A DNA stretch of 64,000 bases from Desulfomicrobium sp. ZS1 (GTDB lineage Bacteria > Desulfobacterota > Desulfovibrionia > Desulfovibrionales > Desulfomicrobiaceae). Of the stretch, positions 1-9,727 are shown one piece after another. The position numbers and the translations under genes are program-made. Where the stretch lies: the NCBI RefSeq assembly GCF_024204645.1, contig NZ_CP100351.1:3560001-3624000 (forward strand). The letters run 5' to 3'. Positions within the stretch are counted from its first letter, which is position 1. The number at the start of each line of letters is the position of its first letter. A model generated the notes under the pieces. It was not told where the DNA came from and did no database searches. It was given only the letters and a program-made list of their open reading frames with translations.

Positions 1-1476
1 CGTCTTGACCGCTTCCAGCGGCTTTACGCTTTCGGCAACCTGTTCACGTTTGGTGGCGAGCAGGTATCCGTCGGCAATGGGCAGCGGGGATTGCGTCGTG
101 ATGTCCTGGGGCAGGTCGAAGAGAACCTGGGCATTTTCCGGAGAAAGCCCGGGCAGATCCCTTGGGCCTTGATTCTTGGTGAAGTAGTCCGATTCCCGGA
201 CCTCAAGCTTCAGGCCGATGGCTTTGACCACGGCATCGAGAGGCTCGCCGACGAGTACCATTTCCAGGGCCTGATCAAGGCGGTCCTGCAGGATCTCCGC
301 CGCGCGATCCTCGGCGATGATATTCGCGATGTTGCTCGCGACAGACTCGAAATCCTCATAGCCTGCGCTCTTGGTGTCTTCCACGGTGATCAGGTGAAAG
401 CCGAACTGGGTGCGGACCGGTTCGCTGACAGCGCCCTTTTCCAGGGCAAAGGCCGCGTCTTCGAAGGGTTTCACCATCCGGCCCCGGCCAAACCAGCCCA
501 GCTCTCCGCCGGTCTGCGTGCCGGAGGGGTCCTCGGTGTATTGCGCGGCCACTTCTGCAAAGGATTTGCCGGCAGCCAGGTCTTTCTGGGCGGCCTTTAT
601 GGTCTGCATGGCTTTTGCCACGCTTTCTTCATCGGCGTTTTCGTCAACGCGCACAAGAAGGTGGCTGGCCTTGACCTGCTCTTCGATCTTGAACTGTTCC
701 TTATGCTCGGCGTAGTACTTTTCGGTTTCCTCGGGGGAGACGGCGGCAGAATCGGCCAGGGTCGCGGGGGTGAGCAGCAGATAGTCGATTTTGGCTCTGG
801 CAGGCACGGCATAGTTGGCCTTGCGCGCCTCGTAATATTCGTTGATCCGCGCGTCCGTCGCGTTGACCTGATTCTGATAGTTTTCCCACGGGTACATCAG
901 ATACGAAATGGTCGCAGTACTGCGGCCGTATGTGTAGAAGTCGCGGGCCTGATCCTCGCCGAGGCGGCCGGGAAGACCGACGTAGGTCCGCAGTTTGTCC
1001 ATGATCATGCCGCGCATGTATTCGGATTCGAATTTGCCGGGGGTGAGGTTGTTGGCGCGCAGCACGTTCTGGTACGAGGCCGGGTCAAAGACGTTGCTTT
1101 CGTTCTGGAAGGCGGGGATGAGATGAATCTCCTTGGCCAGTTCCTCCTTGGAAACGGTCAGGCCGAGTTTGGCGGCCTGCTGCATCATCAACTCTTCGAT
1201 GACCATCTGTTCAAGAATCTGTCTTTTGAATCCCATCTGAGCCAGGATCTCGGCTGTCAGGTTTGGGTTCTGGCTGCGCGCGAGTTCGAGGCTGCGCTGC
1301 AGGCGTTCCTGGAAAGGCTGGAAGAGAAGGGGTGAATCGTTGACTGTGGCGACGACGGTGGTCTGGTCGTTTTGCACGCGATTCATGCCAAAGGCCAAAA
1401 CAAAAACGGCAATGATAATGCCGAAGAGGATTTTTATTCCCCAACTTTGAGCGCCCTGGCGCAGGATATCAAGCAT
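1..1476 (-). CDS. ppiD: Periplasmic peptidyl-prolyl isomerase PpiD-like (SurA_N/rotamase), partial at window edge
   Basis: Membrane-anchored periplasmic folding factor of the PpiD/SurA family. The frame opens with ATG at 1476 (MLDILRQGAQSWG) and has no stop before base 1, so about 492 codons are present and the C terminus is missing; full PpiD proteins are about 620-640 residues. Residues 1-32 give a short cytoplasmic start and one transmembrane segment (ILFGIIIAVFVLAFGM). A SurA_N-like helical domain follows (around 45-190), then the parvulin region. The last visible residues (ADGYLLATKREQ) fit the end of a rotamase domain. It lies 57 bp downstream of the aconitase gene on the same strand. 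The family is clear; the exact rotamase count is not visible because of truncation. Confidence 0.85.
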   Translation of the reverse strand, partial: MLDILRQGAQSWGIKILFGIIIAVFVLAFGMNRVQNDQTTVVATVNDSPLLFQPFQERLQRSLELARSQNPNLTAEILAQMGFKRQILEQMVIEELMMQQAAKLGLTVSKEELAKEIHLIPAFQNESNVFDPASYQNVLRANNLTPGKFESEYMRGMIMDKLRTYVGLPGRLGEDQARDFYTYGRSTATISYLMYPWENYQNQVNATDARINEYYEARKANYAVPARAKIDYLLLTPATLADSAAVSPEETEKYYAEHKEQFKIEEQVKASHLLVRVDENADEESVAKAMQTIKAAQKDLAAGKSFAEVAAQYTEDPSGTQTGGELGWFGRGRMVKPFEDAAFALEKGAVSEPVRTQFGFHLITVEDTKSAGYEDFESVASNIANIIAEDRAAEILQDRLDQALEMVLVGEPLDAVVKAIGLKLEVRESDYFTKNQGPRDLPGLSPENAQVLFDLPQDITTQSPLPIADGYLLATKREQVAESVKPLEAVKT

Positions 1477-1533: not shown

Positions 1534-3456
1534 TTATTTTTGCCTGTCGTTGACGTAATTGAGCAAGCCGCCAGCCTTGATAATGGCTATTTCATTACCC
1601 GTCAAATCATGGGTCAGCGTGAGCTGCCTGTCGCCGGATGTGGTGGCGCAAAGCGCCGCTCCGGGTTCAAGAGCGCCAAGTTCGAGGCGCAGGACATCGC
1701 CCTGGGCCAGCGTGTCATAGTCCTCCTCGTTGGCGAGCAATAGCGGGAGGATGCCGAAATTGATCAGGTTCGCCTTGTGAATGCGGGCGAAAGACTTGGT
1801 CAGAACCACGCGGACGCCCAGGTGGCGTGGGGCGAGGGCCGCATGCTCGCGGCTGGAGCCTTGCCCGTAGTTCTCGCCGCCGAGGATGAGCCCCTGTCCC
1901 GCTTTTTCGGCCCGGGTCACGAAATCTTTGTCCACGCGCTCGAACACATGCCTGCTGATGGCCGGGATGTTGGAGCGCAGGGCGGTGATGGCCGCGCCGG
2001 CGGGCATGATGTGGTCGGTGGTGATATTGTCCCCGACTTTGATCAGCACCGGCAACTCCAAGACCTCCGGCAGTCTGTCAAAGGGTGACAGGGGGACGAT
2101 GTTGGGCCCGCGCAGGATTTCGACTTTGCTTCCATCCTCGGGCGGGAAGGCGAAGAGATGGCGGATGGACGGTGCCGTGGCCGGTAGCGAGGGCTTGGAA
2201 ACGCGTTTGGTCCAGGTCGAGGGGTTGGTGAACTTGCCGTTCAGGGCGCTGAATGCCGCGGTGATGGGGCTGACAAGATAGATCTGGCCGTCCTGGGTGC
2301 CGCTGCGGCCCTCGAAATTGCGGTTAAAGGTCCGGGCGCTGACGCCACCGCTGGACGGCGAACCGCCCATGCCGATGCACGGACCGCAGGAACATTCCAT
2401 GAGCCGCCCGCCCGCGTCGAGGATGAGGTCGAGCAGGCCTTCGCGCATGAGCATTTTGAGCACCTGCTTGGATCCCGGCGACAAAAGCAGGTCCGTGTTC
2501 GGGGCGATATGCTCGCCGCTCAGGATCTGAGCCACGCTCTGCAGGTCGGAGTACGAGGAGTTGGTGCAGGAGCCGATGGCCACCTGGTCGACGTTCATTC
2601 CGTCGAGTTCCGCCACGGGGACGACCCTGTCGGGCATATGCGGCCGGGCCGCCAGGGGAACAAGCGCGCTCAGGTCGATGACGATTTCCCGGTCGTATGT
2701 CGCGTCTTCGTCGGCGGCCAAGGGGGTGAAATCGCTTTCCCGGCCCATGAGCGCAAGAAAGGCCCGGGTCTGGTCGTCGCTGGGGAAGATGGAAGCCGTG
2801 GCGCCCAGCTCCGCGCCCATGTTGGTGATGGTGGCGCGCTCCGGCACGCTCAAGGTGGCCACGCCGGGGCCGCAGTATTCCATGACCGCGCCCACGCCGC
2901 CCTTGACGGTCAGGATGCCCAAAAGGTGCAGGATGACGTCCTTGGCGGAGGCATATCCGGTCAGCTGCCCTTCGAGGCGGATCTTGAAGACCTTGGGCAT
3001 GGTGATGGTGTACGGCTCTCCGGCCATGGCCAGGGCCACGGAGAGCCCGCCCGCGCCCATGGACAGGCTGCCGATGCCGCCGGCAGTGGGCGTGTGCGAA
3101 TCCGAGCCGATCAGGGTCTTGCCCGGAACCGCGAAGTTTTCCAGATGCAGCTGGTGGCATATGCCCGTGCCGGGAGGGGAGAAAACAATGCCGTATTTGG
3201 CGGCCACGCTGCGCAGATAGCGGTGGTCGTCTGGGTTGCGGAAGCCCATTTGCAGGGTATTGTGATCGACATAGCTGACGGAAAGCTCTGTCTTGACCCG
3301 TGGCAGGCCAATGGCTTCCCACTGCAGGTAGGCCATGGTACCGGTGGCGTCCTGGGTCAGGGTCTGGTCTATTTTGATGGCCACTTCGTTTCCGGGCTGC
3401 ATATCGCCTTCAACGAGGTGCGCCGCGATGATCTTCTGGGTGAGGTTCTGGTTCAT
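1534..3456 (-). CDS. acn: Aconitate hydratase (monomeric, 640 aa)
   Basis: Catalyses citrate/isocitrate interconversion with a [4Fe-4S] cluster in the cytoplasmic TCA branch. Visible are SDSHTPTAGGIGSLSMGAGG (about 118-137), cluster ligands Cys297 (GSCTNSS), Cys357 and Cys360 (CSCGPCIGMG), and the C-terminal swivel domain with GDNITTDHIMPAG (about 475) and GENYGQGSSREHAA (about 527). At 640 residues it is shorter than AcnA (about 890) and has the compact form known from sulfate reducers and other anaerobes. Start chosen at ATG 3456 behind a GAAGGAG site. A terminator ends only about 35 bp upstream, so its promoter must overlap that terminator or it depends on readthrough. Confidence 0.92.
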   Translation of the reverse strand: MNQNLTQKIIAAHLVEGDMQPGNEVAIKIDQTLTQDATGTMAYLQWEAIGLPRVKTELSVSYVDHNTLQMGFRNPDDHRYLRSVAAKYGIVFSPPGTGICHQLHLENFAVPGKTLIGSDSHTPTAGGIGSLSMGAGGLSVALAMAGEPYTITMPKVFKIRLEGQLTGYASAKDVILHLLGILTVKGGVGAVMEYCGPGVATLSVPERATITNMGAELGATASIFPSDDQTRAFLALMGRESDFTPLAADEDATYDREIVIDLSALVPLAARPHMPDRVVPVAELDGMNVDQVAIGSCTNSSYSDLQSVAQILSGEHIAPNTDLLLSPGSKQVLKMLMREGLLDLILDAGGRLMECSCGPCIGMGGSPSSGGVSARTFNRNFEGRSGTQDGQIYLVSPITAAFSALNGKFTNPSTWTKRVSKPSLPATAPSIRHLFAFPPEDGSKVEILRGPNIVPLSPFDRLPEVLELPVLIKVGDNITTDHIMPAGAAITALRSNIPAISRHVFERVDKDFVTRAEKAGQGLILGGENYGQGSSREHAALAPRHLGVRVVLTKSFARIHKANLINFGILPLLLANEEDYDTLAQGDVLRLELGALEPGAALCATTSGDRQLTLTHDLTGNEIAIIKAGGLLNYVNDRQK

Positions 3457-3535: not shown

Positions 3536-3784
3536 TTACCACGTGGATGCAAGCCGCCTGAGCTTGACTTGTAGAATCTGAATTTCAGTGTCCAGGCGCA
3601 GTTTGTCCTGCTGCAGCCGGAAAATGTCCTCGTGAAAGGTTATGCCGCGCGCAGGATCTTCTTGTAGAAGCAATTCTTTGACCTTGGCCTGAGCGTCGGC
3701 CTGTTCGGCTTTGAACTTGGCGATTTCCTTTTCGATGGTCTTAATCTGTTGTGATTCGGATTCGTTTACGTTTAGGCTTGTCAT
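3536..3784 (-). CDS. Small charged coiled-coil protein, unknown function (82 aa)
   Basis: No family recognised. The protein is almost entirely predicted helix, with heptad-like spacing (IKTIEKEIAKFKAEQADAQAKV and a second block LRLDTEIQILQVKLRRL), so it probably forms a coiled coil. It has no signal peptide or membrane segment. Its start lies inside the 3' end of the CM-EPSPS-like gene in another frame (44-bp overlap, 3741-3784), which suggests translational coupling. A terminator follows 15 bp after its stop. The frame is judged real from the overlap arrangement, the terminator placement and a protein-like composition. A structural or partner role for the upstream protein is inference only. 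Confidence 0.6.
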   Translation of the reverse strand: MTSLNVNESESQQIKTIEKEIAKFKAEQADAQAKVKELLLQEDPARGITFHEDIFRLQQDKLRLDTEIQILQVKLRRLASTW

Positions 3785-5381
3785 CGTGATTTTCGTCTAC
3801 CTGTTCTTCTATTCGGGCTGAATTTATGAAGTTTTGAGGACTTGGAAGATTCATGAAGATCTTCCAGAACCAGGGCCAGGCCGAGGAAATGTTGTCCGCA
3901 TTGGTCATGCAGACTCCGGGATGCGTGAAGGATATGAGCGATCCGGCCAGGGTCCAGTACGGGCCCGGACTTTGCCAGGGCGACTCGCTGACTTTCTTGG
4001 CGTTAGCCAGTCCGAGCTGCAACAGCCCGGGTTCAATGGCATATCCTGCGCCCAGATTTTCGAGCAGGTCCTGGGCGTATTCGACATCCTCGCTCGTGGT
4101 GTCCAGGGTGATGGCGCATTGACCGCGCAGGCCCATGGACATGGCCAGCACCAACGGCAGGTATTCCTGGCAGGAGGTGATGTCTATGGATAGTTGCTGG
4201 GGCCTGTTGCCCATGACGGAAGTTATTTCGCCTCCGTGGAAGCTGACCCGCAATCCGAATTCCTGCAGGATATCCATAATGTCTTGGAGGTGAGGCGCGT
4301 GCTGAGGCCATTTGCCATGCAGGATCACCTTGCCGTCGGTAAAGAACGGAAGAACCAGCAGGTGAAGGCTCATGAGCGGATCCACAGGAATATCCACTGA
4401 CGAAAGGTCAAGGCTGATGGGCACCGGCGGGACGATGATGCTTAGCCCCTCAAATTGCAGTTCCGGGATATGCTCCTGCAGGAATCCGATCCCTTTGCGC
4501 AGCAGCTTGCTGTTTGAAAACGATTCATCGAGCTGGATCGAAAGCCCAGCCTTGTACGTGGTGGCCGCGACAACAAGAGCCAGCACGAACTTTTTGGACA
4601 CGCCCTTGGGAATGGAGATGGTTTCTGGGAGTTGGCCACTGCTCTCGACCCTGACGGGCAATCCATAGCTGTGCGGTTCCACGATCGTCAGGCGGGCGCC
4701 AAGTTGAGGCAGAATATCTTGTACGGGTCTGACGTCATGAATTTTGAGTTTCGTTGAACCGGTGAATTTGGCCCGGGTGACCTGCCCGAGGGCAAGGCAC
4801 AGCAAAAGATAGAAATGGAATTTGCTTTGTCCGGCATAAATGATCTTGTTGTCCATCGACCAAGAGTCAACGGGTTGGGTTTCGCATTGCCGGTTTTGGA
4901 ACGCGAGGTTGAATCCGCAGAGGTTGAGGGCATTGATCACTTCCAGGGAGATATCATTCCCCTGGAATGGCGCGATGGTCAGCGGCGAGGAGTTTGTGGC
5001 TCCAAGGAAGAACATCATGCTGCGCAGGATCTGATCCCGAGGAGCCTCAAGGTCTATTTCCACCGGCTTGCGCCTGGGGAAGAGGCACAACGGCTTTTCA
5101 TTAGAAGAGTTCCGTTCGACCCTGGCATAAGAGAGGTTGTTCGAGAGGTGGAAGATTTTCTTGAGGATCTGGGGTTCCAGATTGTCCGCCTTGGACGCGT
5201 CCCGCCAGACCTGCCACAGAACTTTTTCCTGATTGGGGTCGGTGATGCCAAGGTTTTTCGAACGTCGTGTCGATGCCGCCCTGGACAAAAGGTTGGTCCG
5301 GGTCATGAGGAGGGACACGAGTTTTTCGTCGAGCTGCGCCAGTTCCTGCGTCAAAGAGAGAGAATTATGTTTTTCGGCCAT
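3741..5381 (-). CDS. Degenerate chorismate mutase-like/EPSP synthase-like fusion (546 aa)
   Basis: Residues about 5-95 resemble an AroQ chorismate mutase helix bundle (LAQLDEKLVSLLMTRTNLLS). Residues about 110-515 follow the AroA (EPSP synthase) fold pattern: IDLEAPRDQILRSM in the place of the PGSKSxSNRA loop, and DVRPVQDILPQLGARLTI matching ERPIGxLxxAL. Most catalytic positions differ. The AroA lysine/serine pair reads R-D, the NAGTAMRP motif reads YAGQSKFHF, SSQ reads SKK, and the RVKETDR motif reads TSEDVEY. In the mutase part the first arginine is missing. A working EPSP synthase is therefore unlikely. The C terminus ends in a basic tail (KPKRKRIRI). It heads a two-gene unit and is divergent from sat. 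Function unknown; a pseudoenzyme or regulatory shikimate-pathway protein is possible. Confidence 0.7.
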   Translation of the reverse strand: MAEKHNSLSLTQELAQLDEKLVSLLMTRTNLLSRAASTRRSKNLGITDPNQEKVLWQVWRDASKADNLEPQILKKIFHLSNNLSYARVERNSSNEKPLCLFPRRKPVEIDLEAPRDQILRSMMFFLGATNSSPLTIAPFQGNDISLEVINALNLCGFNLAFQNRQCETQPVDSWSMDNKIIYAGQSKFHFYLLLCLALGQVTRAKFTGSTKLKIHDVRPVQDILPQLGARLTIVEPHSYGLPVRVESSGQLPETISIPKGVSKKFVLALVVAATTYKAGLSIQLDESFSNSKLLRKGIGFLQEHIPELQFEGLSIIVPPVPISLDLSSVDIPVDPLMSLHLLVLPFFTDGKVILHGKWPQHAPHLQDIMDILQEFGLRVSFHGGEITSVMGNRPQQLSIDITSCQEYLPLVLAMSMGLRGQCAITLDTTSEDVEYAQDLLENLGAGYAIEPGLLQLGLANAKKVSESPWQSPGPYWTLAGSLISFTHPGVCMTNADNISSAWPWFWKIFMNLPSPQNFINSARIEEQVDENHDDKPKRKRIRITTD

Positions 5382-5728: not shown

Positions 5729-6997
5729 ATGGCTCTCGTACCCCCGCATGGTGGAAAAGGTTTGGTTTGCTGTCTGCTTCAGGGTGCCGAATTGGCTGCC
5801 GAGCAGAAAAAGGCCGCAGGACTGAAGAAGATCGATATCAGCCCCCGCGCCAAGGGCGACCTGATCATGATGGGCATCGGCGGCTTCAGCCCGCTGAGCG
5901 GCTTCATGACCAAGGCCGACTGGAAGTCCGTGTGTGAGAAGTTCACCTTGGCCGACGGGACCTTCTGGCCCGTGCCCGTGACCCTGGATATGGATGAAGA
6001 AGTTAAGGTTGGCGAAGAGATCGCTTTGTTCGACCCCAAGAAGGGCGTTTTCATGGCCACCATGAAGGTCACCGAAGTTTACGAAATGACCGACGCCGAC
6101 AAAAAGTGGGAATGCGAGAAGGTCTACAAGGGCCAGGGCGAAGAGTCTGCTGACGACAAGTTCTGGGAAATCGCCCCCAAGGATCACCCCGGCGTGCAGA
6201 TGGTTCTGGCTCAGAAGAAATACAATGTTGCCGGTCCGGTCAAGGTTCTCTCCGAAGGCGACTACCGCGACAGATTCCCCGGTTGCTACATGTCCCCGGC
6301 CGAAGCCCGCGCCACTTTTGAAGAAAAGGGTTGGAGCAAGGTTGCCGCTCTGCAGCTGCGTAACCCCATGCACCGCTCCCACGAATATCTGGCCAAGATC
6401 GCTGTTGAAGTTTGTGACGGCGTTTTCATTCACTCCCTGGTCGGCAACCTGAAGCCCGGCGACATCCCGGCTGAAGTCCGCATCAAGTGCATCGATACCC
6501 TCATCGACAAGTACTTTGTGAAGGCCAACGTCGTTCAGGGTGGCTACCCCCTGGATATGCGTTATGCCGGTCCCCGCGAAGGCCTGCTGCACGCCACCTT
6601 CCGTCAGAACTACGGCGTTTCCGACATGCTGATCGGTCGTGACCATGCTGGCGTCGGCGACTTCTACGGTCTGTTCGAAGCTCAGGAAATCTTTGATCGC
6701 GTTCCCAAGAACCTGGGCGCCGGCAAGGATCTGGTCACCCAGCCCATGAAGATCGACTGGACCTTCTACTGCTACAAGTGTGACGGCATGGCCTCCCTGC
6801 GCACCTGCCCGCACAGCAAGGACGACCGTGTTGTTCTGTCCGGCACCAAGTTGCGCAAGGCCCTGTCCGAAGGCGCCGAGGTTGTTGATCACTTCGGTCG
6901 CGACGAAGTCCTGGTCATCCTGCGCGAATACTACTCCACGCTGACCGAAAAGGTCGAAGTGAAGATGCAGGGTGCCGCTTCCGGCGCAGCGATGTAG
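5729..6997 (+). CDS. sat: Sulfate adenylyltransferase (ATP sulfurylase)
   Basis: Activates sulfate with ATP to adenosine 5'-phosphosulfate and pyrophosphate, the first cytoplasmic step of dissimilatory sulfate reduction. The 422-residue protein has the nucleotide-binding motif [11 protein letters not shown] (209-219), the [12 protein letters not shown] motif (about 303-314) and a C-terminal zinc-site cluster Cys348, Cys351, Cys360 and His362. Length matches homotrimeric Sat enzymes of sulfate reducers (about 425). ATG 5729 follows AGGAGG by nine bases. Codon use is strongly biased, as expected for an abundant protein. A terminator follows, so it is a single transcription unit next to aprBA. 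Confidence 0.97.
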
Positions 6998-7208: not shown

Positions 7209-7697
7209 ATGCCAACCTTTGTTGATCCAGCAAAGTGTGATGGATGCAAGGGCGGTGAAAAGACTGCCTGTATGTACATCTGTCCTAACGACCTGATGAT
7301 CCTGGACCCTGTAGAGATGAAGGCTTACAATCAGGAGCCGTCCGCTTGCTGGGAATGTTACTCCTGTATCAAGATTTGTCCCCAGGGCGCGATCACCGCT
7401 CGTCCGTATGCTGACTTCGCCCCCATGGGCGGCACCTGCATCCCGCTGCGCGGCGCGGAAGACATCATGTGGACTGTTCAGTTCCGCAATGGCGAAGTAA
7501 AGCGCTTCAAGTTCCCCATCCGCACCACTGTGGAAGGTTCCATCAAGCCCTTCGAAGGCAAGCCCGAAGGCGCGAACCTGGAAGATGAGCTTCTGTTCAC
7601 CGAGACCGCTTTGACCACTCCCAAGGAAGCTCTCGGCAAGAAGATTGAAGTCGGTGAAGCAGACCTGAAGGTCACCTTCAAGTCGGCCGTCGCCTAA
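7209..7697 (+). CDS. aprB: Adenylylsulfate reductase beta subunit (ferredoxin-type)
   Basis: Electron-transfer subunit of APS reductase, which reduces APS to sulfite and AMP. Two [4Fe-4S] clusters are visible: Cys10, Cys13, Cys21, Cys25 (with the lengthened CxxCxxxxxxxC spacing typical of AprB) and Cys47, Cys50, Cys53, Cys57 (CWECYSCIKICP). The C-terminal half has a beta-rich segment and a tail of the kind that wraps the alpha subunit. Length 162 residues is normal. ATG 7209 follows GGAGG. It is 38 bp upstream of aprA in one operon. Confidence 0.97.
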   Translation: MPTFVDPAKCDGCKGGEKTACMYICPNDLMILDPVEMKAYNQEPSACWECYSCIKICPQGAITARPYADFAPMGGTCIPLRGAEDIMWTVQFRNGEVKRFKFPIRTTVEGSIKPFEGKPEGANLEDELLFTETALTTPKEALGKKIEVGEADLKVTFKSAVA

Positions 7698-7735
7698 TTC
7701 GGCGCTTTAAACGAAAGAAATTTCAGGAGGAACAT

Positions 7736-9727
7736 ATGCCTCAGATCCCTGTTAAAGACGTGATCAAGGGCCTTGCTTGCGCAGAGCCCGAAATCGTTGA
7801 GATTGATACCGACATTCTTATGGTCGGTGGTGGTATGGGTAACTGCGGTACTGCTTTTGAAGCAGTGCGCTGGGCCGACAAAGTTGGCGGCGACATCAAG
7901 ATTCTTTTGGTTGACAAGGCCGCTGTCGATCGCGGCGGCGCGGTTGCTCAGGGTCTTTCCGCCATCAATACCTACATCGGTGAGAACGAGTCCGATGACT
8001 ATGTCCGCATGGTCCGCACCGACCTCATGGGCATCGTTCGCGAAGACTTGATCTTCGACCTTGGCCGCCACGTGGATGATTCCGTCCATCTGTTCGAAGA
8101 GTGGGGCCTGCCCTGCTGGATCAAGAAAGACGGCAAGAACCTGGACGGCGCCCAGGCCAAGAAAGAAGGCCTGGCTCTGCGCAAGGGCGATGCCCCTGTC
8201 CGTTCCGGCCGCTGGCAGATCATGATCAACGGTGAGTCCTACAAGGTCATCGTTGCTGAAGCCGCCAAGAACGCCCTGGGTTCCGACCGTTACATGGAGC
8301 GCATCTTCATCGTTAAGCTGCTGCTTGATGCCAAGGTTCCGAACCAGATCGCCGGCGCTGTCGGTTTCTCCGTTCGTGAAAATAAAGTGTACGTCATCAA
8401 AGCCAAGACCATGTCCGTGGCTTGCGGTGGCGCTGTCAACGTATACCGTCCCCGCTCCACTGGTGAAGGCCTTGGTCGCGCATGGTACCCCGTATGGAAC
8501 GCCGGCTCCACCTACACCATGTGTGCACAGGTTGGCGCTGAAATGACCATGATGGAAAACCGCTTCGTACCCGCCCGCTTCAAAGACGGTTACGGTCCGG
8601 TCGGCGCATGGTTCCTGCTCTTCAAGGCCAAAGCCACCAACGCCAAGGGTGAAGACTATTGTGTCACCAACCGCGCCATGCTGAAGCCCTACGAGGATCG
8701 CGGCTACGCCAAGGGTCACGTCATCCCCACCTGTCTGCGCAACCACATGATGCTTCGCGAAATGCGCGAAGGTCGCGGCCCCATCTACATGGATACCGCC
8801 ACTGCGCTGAACACCACCTTTGCTACCCTGTCCAAGGCCGAGCAGAAGCATCTTGAGTCCGAAGCTTGGGAAGACTTCCTTGACATGTGTGTTGGCCAGG
8901 CCAACCTGTGGGCAGCCATGAACATCAAGCCCGAAGAACGCGGCTCCGAGATCATGCCCACCGAGCCTTACCTGCTTGGTTCCCATTCCGGCTGCTGCGG
9001 CATCTGGGTTTCCGGTCCGAACGAGCCCTGGGTTCCTGAAGAATACAAAGTCAAGGCCGCCAATGGTAAGGTCTACAACCGCATGACTACGGTCAACGGT
9101 CTGTTCACCTGTGCTGACGGTGTTGGCGCTTCCGGTCACAAGTTCTCCTCCGGTTCCCATGCTGAAGGCCGTATCGTCGGCAAGCAGATGGTTCGCTACG
9201 TTGTGGATCACAAGGATTTCACTCCCACGCTGAACGTGTCCGCCGAAGAGCTGAAGAAGGAAATCTACCAGCCTTGGTACACCTTTGAGCAGTTCAAGGG
9301 CGCGTCCACTGATCCGGTAGTCAACCCGAACTACATCTCCCCCAACAACTTCATGATGCGCCTTATCAAGTGCACCGATGAATACGGCGGCGGTGTTGCT
9401 ACCCTGTACACCACTTCCGACAGACTGCTCGACACCGGCTTCGCCCTACTCGACATGCTGGAAGAAGATTCCAAGAAGTTGGCTGCCCGCGACCTGCACG
9501 AACTGCTCCGTTGCTGGGAACAGTTCCACAGACTGTGGACCGTTCGTCTGCACATGCAGCACATTCGTTTCCGTCAGGAAAGCCGTTACCCCGGTTTCTA
9601 CTATCGCGCAGACTTCATGGGTCTGGACGATGCCAAGTGGAAGTGCTTTGTTAACTCCAAGTTCAACCCGGCCACTGGTGAAACCAATATCTTCAAGAGA
9701 CATTACTACCAGATCATCCCTGACTAG
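7736..9727 (+). CDS. aprA: Adenylylsulfate reductase alpha subunit (FAD)
   Basis: Catalytic flavoprotein of APS reductase; APS forms an adduct with the FAD and yields sulfite plus AMP. The 663-residue sequence begins with the dinucleotide-binding strand TDILMVGGGMGNCGTAFEAV. It has the fumarate-reductase-like core, including DKAAVDRGGAVAQGLSAIN, RFKDGYGPVGAWF and GSHSGCCGIWVSG, and an aromatic-rich C terminus. Length matches the family (about 660). ATG 7736 follows AGGAGG. Codon bias is strong, as for sat. It is second in the aprBA operon, closed by a terminator, and works with the downstream Qmo complex. Confidence 0.97.
   Translation: MPQIPVKDVIKGLACAEPEIVEIDTDILMVGGGMGNCGTAFEAVRWADKVGGDIKILLVDKAAVDRGGAVAQGLSAINTYIGENESDDYVRMVRTDLMGIVREDLIFDLGRHVDDSVHLFEEWGLPCWIKKDGKNLDGAQAKKEGLALRKGDAPVRSGRWQIMINGESYKVIVAEAAKNALGSDRYMERIFIVKLLLDAKVPNQIAGAVGFSVRENKVYVIKAKTMSVACGGAVNVYRPRSTGEGLGRAWYPVWNAGSTYTMCAQVGAEMTMMENRFVPARFKDGYGPVGAWFLLFKAKATNAKGEDYCVTNRAMLKPYEDRGYAKGHVIPTCLRNHMMLREMREGRGPIYMDTATALNTTFATLSKAEQKHLESEAWEDFLDMCVGQANLWAAMNIKPEERGSEIMPTEPYLLGSHSGCCGIWVSGPNEPWVPEEYKVKAANGKVYNRMTTVNGLFTCADGVGASGHKFSSGSHAEGRIVGKQMVRYVVDHKDFTPTLNVSAEELKKEIYQPWYTFEQFKGASTDPVVNPNYISPNNFMMRLIKCTDEYGGGVATLYTTSDRLLDTGFALLDMLEEDSKKLAARDLHELLRCWEQFHRLWTVRLHMQHIRFRQESRYPGFYYRADFMGLDDAKWKCFVNSKFNPATGETNIFKRHYYQIIPD

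Follow-up and report, generated by a model that had tools for sequence, protein, structure and literature searches.

The closest described relatives of the protein reported here are two enzymes of one pathway. In true AroQ enzymes, the helices form a dimer, and the fold of the EPSP synthase (EPSPS) superfamily is common to RNA 3'-phosphate cyclase. AroA (TIGR01356, PF00275) shares with the fusion family described here a two-domain fold as well as scaffold prolines and glycines, but, unlike the fusion, it keeps its site residues, and a real AroA coexists with the fusion in one genome. The AroQ mutase (PF01817; E. coli PheA, PDB 1ecm) matches the fusion without a change in length and has R28 and E52 in common with it; the fusion differs by the loss of R51 and, mostly, of R11 and Q88, and by the EPSPS fold joined to it. 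The bifunctional AroA proteins of NCBIfam, PRK14806 (with prephenate dehydrogenase) and PRK11860 (with cytidylate kinase), likewise combine an EPSPS domain with a second enzyme domain. These are, however, named as functional enzymes, and the fusion protein scores 10.3 bits to PRK14806 versus 902. No model of an AroQ–AroA fusion was present among the Pfam and NCBIfam matches to the fusion protein.

Genes of the pheA, aroA and tyrA type are treated in the available portions of PMC4162548, PMC3431258 and PMC5701242, the last of which also contains Ddes_1346, a 'chorismate mutase related enzyme'. Our literature search, in which the D. vulgaris locus tag was not established, retrieved no description that could be connected with the fusion family.

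The fusion gene, its locus and its predicted fold

The window, i.e., the whole stretch of 64,000 nucleotides of the Desulfomicrobium sp. ZS1 genome that was analysed, carries on its minus strand a coding sequence for a fused AroQ-like/AroA-like protein of 546 amino acids (3741..5381, stop codon included), with matches in 133 of 150 relatives. This frame had been recognised, with no strand given, in an initial annotation made from the sequence alone. The fusion gene and the sulfate adenylyltransferase gene sat (5729..6997, plus strand; TIGR00339, 342.3 bits, cut-off 322.95) lie on opposite strands and are therefore transcribed divergently, as had also been stated there. On the same side as sat, aprB and aprA for adenylylsulfate reductase (7209..9727, plus strand) scored above cut-off with TIGR02060 (242.9 bits) and TIGR02061 (1096.4 bits). 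On the other side, a small ORF of 82 amino acids (3536..3784, minus strand) overlaps the fusion gene at its 3' end, and genes for aconitate hydratase (1534..3456, minus strand; NF005558, 941.8 bits, cut-off 612) and for a PpiD/SurA-like peptidylprolyl isomerase truncated at the edge of the window (1..1476, minus strand; NF008054, 161.9 bits, below the cut-off of 493) are located beyond it. The ZS1 genome (3.87 Mb, one contig) also holds the second, canonical aroA that the initial annotation had considered, at G000:C1:3134260-3135603 and thus more than 400 kb from the fusion gene; its product of 448 amino acids reached 376.8 bits with the NCBIfam aroA model. One further PF00275 gene of this genome looks like MurA, a name given by reading.

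Both Pfam matches of the fusion protein lay just above the curated cut-offs, with 33.1 bits (cut-off 27) to CM_2, in which model positions 2–70 align to residues 11–79, and 27.5 bits (cut-off 22.8) to EPSP_synthase, while the NCBIfam aroA equivalog score was not reached (43.2 bits vs a cut-off of 287.25). At the level of the family, a profile–profile alignment with AroA extended over 414 columns (E 2.8e-41). The AlphaFold model, built from 54 orthologues, showed a mean pLDDT of 89.3 and a pTM of 0.86, with N-terminal helices at residues 10–41, 49–64 and 70–89 followed by a body resembling EPSPS and a tail of low confidence. When this model was used in Foldseek, EPSP synthases ranked first (best E 6.4e-26), and the best VIA-align match was to the unliganded M. 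tuberculosis EPSPS (Z 37.1, 403 residues, 3.1 Å), with MurA entries next at Z of about 27–29. Based on the AlphaFold model and on the Foldseek and VIA-align scores, the EPSPS fold is retained, and residues 95–515 (3837..5099, minus strand) are predicted to form a complete EPSP-synthase fold.

The listed VIA-align rows cover residues 94–515 only, and the AroQ part (chorismate mutase type II-like, residues 10–89; 5115..5354, minus strand) is represented by the three predicted helices. At an E value of 0.01 or better, 35 of the 54 members of set A1 matched the AroQ domain, and the sequence match of the AroQ part to E. coli PheA (PDB 1ecm), residues 5–79 to 5–79, was weak (E 0.12).

Loss of both active sites

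The EPSP synthase site was analysed on a profile–profile alignment of an 82-member family profile with the AroA proteins of E. coli, of the own genome and of 30 relatives. The 82 distinct members were derived from the sampled loci, which represent part of the 133 matching genomes, after removal of repeats, of a contig-cut copy (L017) and of a frame-split one (L022). We scored 18 E. coli AroA positions, which we take to be catalytic or substrate-binding; three more were omitted, namely N94, which is Glu in 31 of 32 AroAs, and N336 and K340, which fall into alignment gaps. As a control, 18 of 18 site residues were found in all 32 true AroAs, in contrast to the fusion family, where 32 members kept none, 37 kept one and 13 kept two. 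When a shift of up to two residues was tolerated, the family count rose to 1–8 of 18, a looser count that has no control.

In the ZS1 protein, K22 is replaced by Q, S23 by I, R27 by M, R100 by Y, R124 by H, D313 by E, E341 by T, R344 by D, R386 by Y and K411 by S, and S169-S170-Q171 reads S-K-K, with the first serine retained. The alignment thereby agrees with the initial annotation on the change of SSQ to SKK and on the loss of the NAGTAMRP and RVKETDR motifs. The replacement of the Lys-Ser loop by R-D proposed there lies two residues off the profile alignment. With at most two of the 18 site residues per member and the fold kept, the suggested pseudoenzyme status is supported as far as EPSP synthase is concerned. 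Scaffold positions common with AroA are retained (E. coli P19 and P150 in 82/82 members, P414 in 81/82). A point against the pseudoenzyme reading comes from the D313 column, in which Glu (44/82, a conservative change) and Asp (5/82) were found, so that an acid is often retained there.

The mutase half was inspected at R11, R28, K39, D48, R51, E52 and Q88, presumed here to make up the AroQ site, the Q88 column being a by-eye extension of the AroQ match past residue 79. Retained in the family were R28 and E52 (82/82 each), K39 as Arg or Lys (78/82) and D48 (67/82); by contrast, R51 was absent from all 82 members, and R11 and Q88 were left in 11 and 3, respectively. Exact site residues amounted to 2–5 of 7 per member, and no member of the 82 had all seven. 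On these counts, the mutase half is degraded as well, which goes beyond what the initial annotation had claimed. Since R28 and E52 are invariant and K39 and D48 are mostly kept, a small-ligand pocket may survive.

The explanation that we favour, and regard as likely, is that of a conserved double pseudoenzyme that carries a conserved basic tip at its C-terminus and, instead of catalysing a reaction, would serve as a dimer for binding or as a scaffold. The foremost alternative, though an unlikely one, is a new enzyme, whose EPSPS fold, or else AroQ pocket, would have been rebuilt for another reaction; a same-order precedent is the shikimate-kinase relative that was identified as a homoserine kinase in D. 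vulgaris (PMC5764234). Such an enzyme would be in line with the strong selection on the fusion gene described below and with the strongly conserved stretch at residues 230–246 (4644..4694, minus strand), where R230, P242 and E246 are present in 82/82 members each and R244 is Arg in 77 and Lys in 5; R230/R244/E246, together with the R28/E52 pair, would be its candidate site residues, of which R28, E52, R230 and E246 are invariant. However, R230, R244 and E246, conserved in the fusion family and not in AroA, align to E. coli AroA K139, R152 and Q154, which we take to be non-catalytic. Moreover, the old AroA positions are variable and have not been re-conserved: at each of the 18, the most frequent residue occurs in 56 of the 82 members or fewer, the commonest replacements including Pro for H385 (56), Tyr for R100 (55) and Phe for T97 (44). 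The new activity that the initial annotation had named as the other option is conceivable but unlikely.

The C-terminal tail and the N-terminal extensions

The double pseudoenzyme that we favour ends in a low-confidence, probably disordered tail (residues 520–546; 3744..3824, minus strand), with pLDDT values below 50 at residues 522–542 and 544–546. A C-terminal basic motif, consisting of [KR], up to one further residue, R and [IV], was found in 79 of 82 members, although the tail as a whole was net positive in only 59. The motif was also present in 13 of the 14 members that have no small ORF at their locus, and gene overlap is therefore not its explanation.

In L063, L073, L077, L078, L082, L084, L089, L090 and L092, the AroQ-like domain follows an N-terminal extension that is rich in Arg, Gly, Lys, Asp and Glu. 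Among the 33 N-terminal extensions of at least 33 amino acids, 20 contain a further, internal ATG and could result from a wrongly assigned start codon; in the other 13, these five residues make up 50–71% in nine and 24–33% in four, values for which there is no background fraction to compare. A repeated (K/R)xF(D/E/N)(K/R) motif was considered as a feature of the extensions and discarded, as it occurred in merely 10 of 47 extensions of at least 12 amino acids.

That the protein binds nucleic acid is a guess drawn from the basic tip and the charged N-terminal extensions. In the fullest form of this guess, the protein would be a platform that binds RNA or ribosomes: its AroQ-like helices would dimerise, the EPSPS body would show an invariant Arg/Glu patch, and the basic tips and charged low-complexity N-termini would bind nucleic acid. 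We regard this version as rather improbable; if true, it would explain retention of the gene in a host-restricted genome that has no chorismate or sulfate-activation genes.

Genomic neighbourhood

Gene context was compared at 60 loci of 6–12 kb each, selected from the 133 matching genomes so as to cover the genera. The small ORF was found at 46 of them, aconitase and a PpiD-like gene at 35 each, and sat, apr or qmo at 36. In particular, the layout with sat/apr beside fusion, small ORF and acnA recurs in several families.

The product of the small ORF is coiled-coil-like by eye and gave no Pfam match above cut-off. Its role as an obligate partner of the fusion was rejected, given that the ORF was present in 11 of 11 tested fusion-less genomes (genera g17, g21, g32 and g34) and absent in 5 of 5 tested g12 and g26 genomes with the fusion; it is a frequent, not an obligatory, neighbour. 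Of nine loci from fusion-less genera, four (L194, L196, L197, L202) had acnA within the stretch that holds the small ORF, with sat on the other side of the ORF in L197 and L202, and the remaining five were without acnA or sat. In genus g34, sat adjoins the small ORF where other genera place the fusion, and acnA comes next in L197 and farther away in L202.

The presence of sat, aprBA or qmoA nearby at 36 of 60 loci, and the recurrence of the layout across families, would suit a non-catalytic factor of sulfate respiration that helps to assemble or regulate Sat, Apr or Qmo. Nevertheless, five genomes have the fusion and no sat match (G102, G090, G119, G149, G104), and six have sat and no fusion (G050, G060, G073, G079, G123, G134), so that the fusion does not appear to be strictly tied to the neighbouring sulfate-reduction genes. 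Furthermore, in L197 the order of sat, small ORF and acnA is intact and the fusion is gone. With this evidence, we consider a sulfate-respiration factor quite improbable.

The fusion in Lawsonia intracellularis

One of the genomes with the fusion and no sat match, G102, is that of L. intracellularis PHE/MN1-00, identified through a 4-kb segment from its third contig with 100% identity to NC_008013.1. Here, the fusion copy is open, with 574 amino acids and a predicted EPSPS fold (pLDDT 83.9; Foldseek E 2.3e-23). Of 11 genomes searched for chorismate synthase (aroC), this one alone gave no match, against a match in the remaining 10, and it is one of the 12 in 150 genomes with no AroA match; the score of its sole PF00275 match is comparable to that of MurA in other genomes. 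MqnA/D was not found either, an absence of little weight given that it applies to 5 of the 6 genomes searched, and that G090, G119 and G149, three of the four further genomes without MqnA/D, do have chorismate synthase.

L. intracellularis, an intracellular parasite, hence keeps the fusion despite losing key aromatic-pathway genes, and the role of the fusion there seems to require neither endogenous chorismate nor sulfate activation. The link to the shikimate pathway put forward in the initial annotation is not supported in view of this finding. The likeness to two enzymes of one pathway and the partly retained AroQ pocket could be accommodated by a protein that regulates aromatic biosynthesis in response to chorismate or shikimate, having kept ligand binding and lost catalysis; a regulator of this kind is nonetheless very improbable in view of the retention of the fusion in L. 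intracellularis and of the distance to the canonical aroA in ZS1.

Distribution, origin and selection

In a sample of the class, 179 of 199 genomes matched the fusion at E 8.8e-51 or better. The 20 genomes that do not have it belong to genera g17 (3), g21 (10), g32 (1) and g34 (6) and are each at least 96% complete; their best matches, no stronger than E 2.2e-23 (one genome had none), are probably AroA or MurA. Its absence from these four genera implies that the job of the fusion is dispensable there. Among the 150 relatives, some genomes are incomplete, and single absences of the fusion or of AroA may be gaps. In a phylum sample of 395 genomes, a match at E 1e-25 was obtained in 159, of which 14 belong to the order; the matches listed from outside the order are AroA-like, and all of these start at model position 75 or later and thus lack the larger share of the AroQ part. 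A scan of named genomes with two strict patterns, the sole search beyond the phylum of the window, returned at least 22 loci, the titles of which include Desulfovibrio, Nitratidesulfovibrio, Avidesulfovibrio, Desulfovibrionaceae, Desulfohalobiaceae, Desulfothermus and one unassigned deltaproteobacterial MAG. Judging from these searches, the fusion family is retained by most sampled members of one order.

In the tree, the 18 fusion-family rows formed one clade (100/100), which joined (88/91, not starred) AroAs from other classes of the phylum and not the order's own AroA. A grouping of the family with the latter was not rejected (AU p 0.352), and the 19 outgroup AroAs had been drawn from among the best family matches, which introduces a one-way bias; long branches also meet at this point. 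The 15 canonical AroAs of the order formed a distinct clade (96/100) that excluded the AroAs of other classes of the phylum, perhaps a sign that the aromatic operon of the order had a separate origin.

Within the genus, dN/dS of the fusion gene was 0.039–0.068 (six pairs). In three genomes measured for both genes, values were 0.063, 0.065 and 0.039 for the fusion and 0.197, 0.180 and 0.178 for the real aroA. Constraint was seen in both domains (three pairs), with 0.012–0.053 for the first, where one pair was synonymous-saturated, and 0.046–0.079 for the second. Such ratios indicate strong purifying selection within the genus and a gene that is not a pseudogene. The description of an intact and conserved gene given in the initial annotation is borne out by these values, by the class sample and by the 82 distinct open copies. 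In the genus of the window, one copy (L022, G011:C1:1322839-1324475) is split into two overlapping frames, by loss or by sequencing error. A gene decaying towards loss, for which this split copy and the 20 fusion-less genomes of the class might be quoted, is almost certainly the wrong explanation considering dN/dS values of 0.04–0.07, the single open frames of all 82 distinct copies (L017 and L022 excluded) and retention in the small genomes G125 and G102 (1.4–1.7 Mb).

Discussion

Our favoured explanation, a pair of joined pseudoenzyme domains kept for binding or scaffolding, could operate as follows. The AroQ-like helices would form a dimer, by analogy with true AroQ enzymes, and the EPSPS body would provide a platform, with aromatic or proline residues at several of the former substrate positions. 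The basic C-terminal tip may bind an acidic partner, for example RNA or protein, and in some Desulfovibrionaceae the charged N-terminal extensions may join the tip. The data show the domain architecture, the loss of both active sites in the members examined, strong purifying selection within the genus and retention in a lineage with no chorismate pathway; dimerisation, the absence of any catalysis and the nature of the partner are what we infer beyond this.

Since L. intracellularis keeps the fusion with no aroA or aroC match, a function outside the pathway is directly testable. Transposon mutant libraries exist for a laboratory Desulfovibrio (PMC10102598).

For genome interpretation, the match of EPSP synthase and chorismate mutase models to the fusion genes means that they may be mistaken for aromatic-biosynthesis enzymes in metabolic reconstruction. 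For the family itself, the fusion offers a clear-cut example from nature in which two catalytic domains from the same pathway stayed together after each had lost residues that its chemistry requires.
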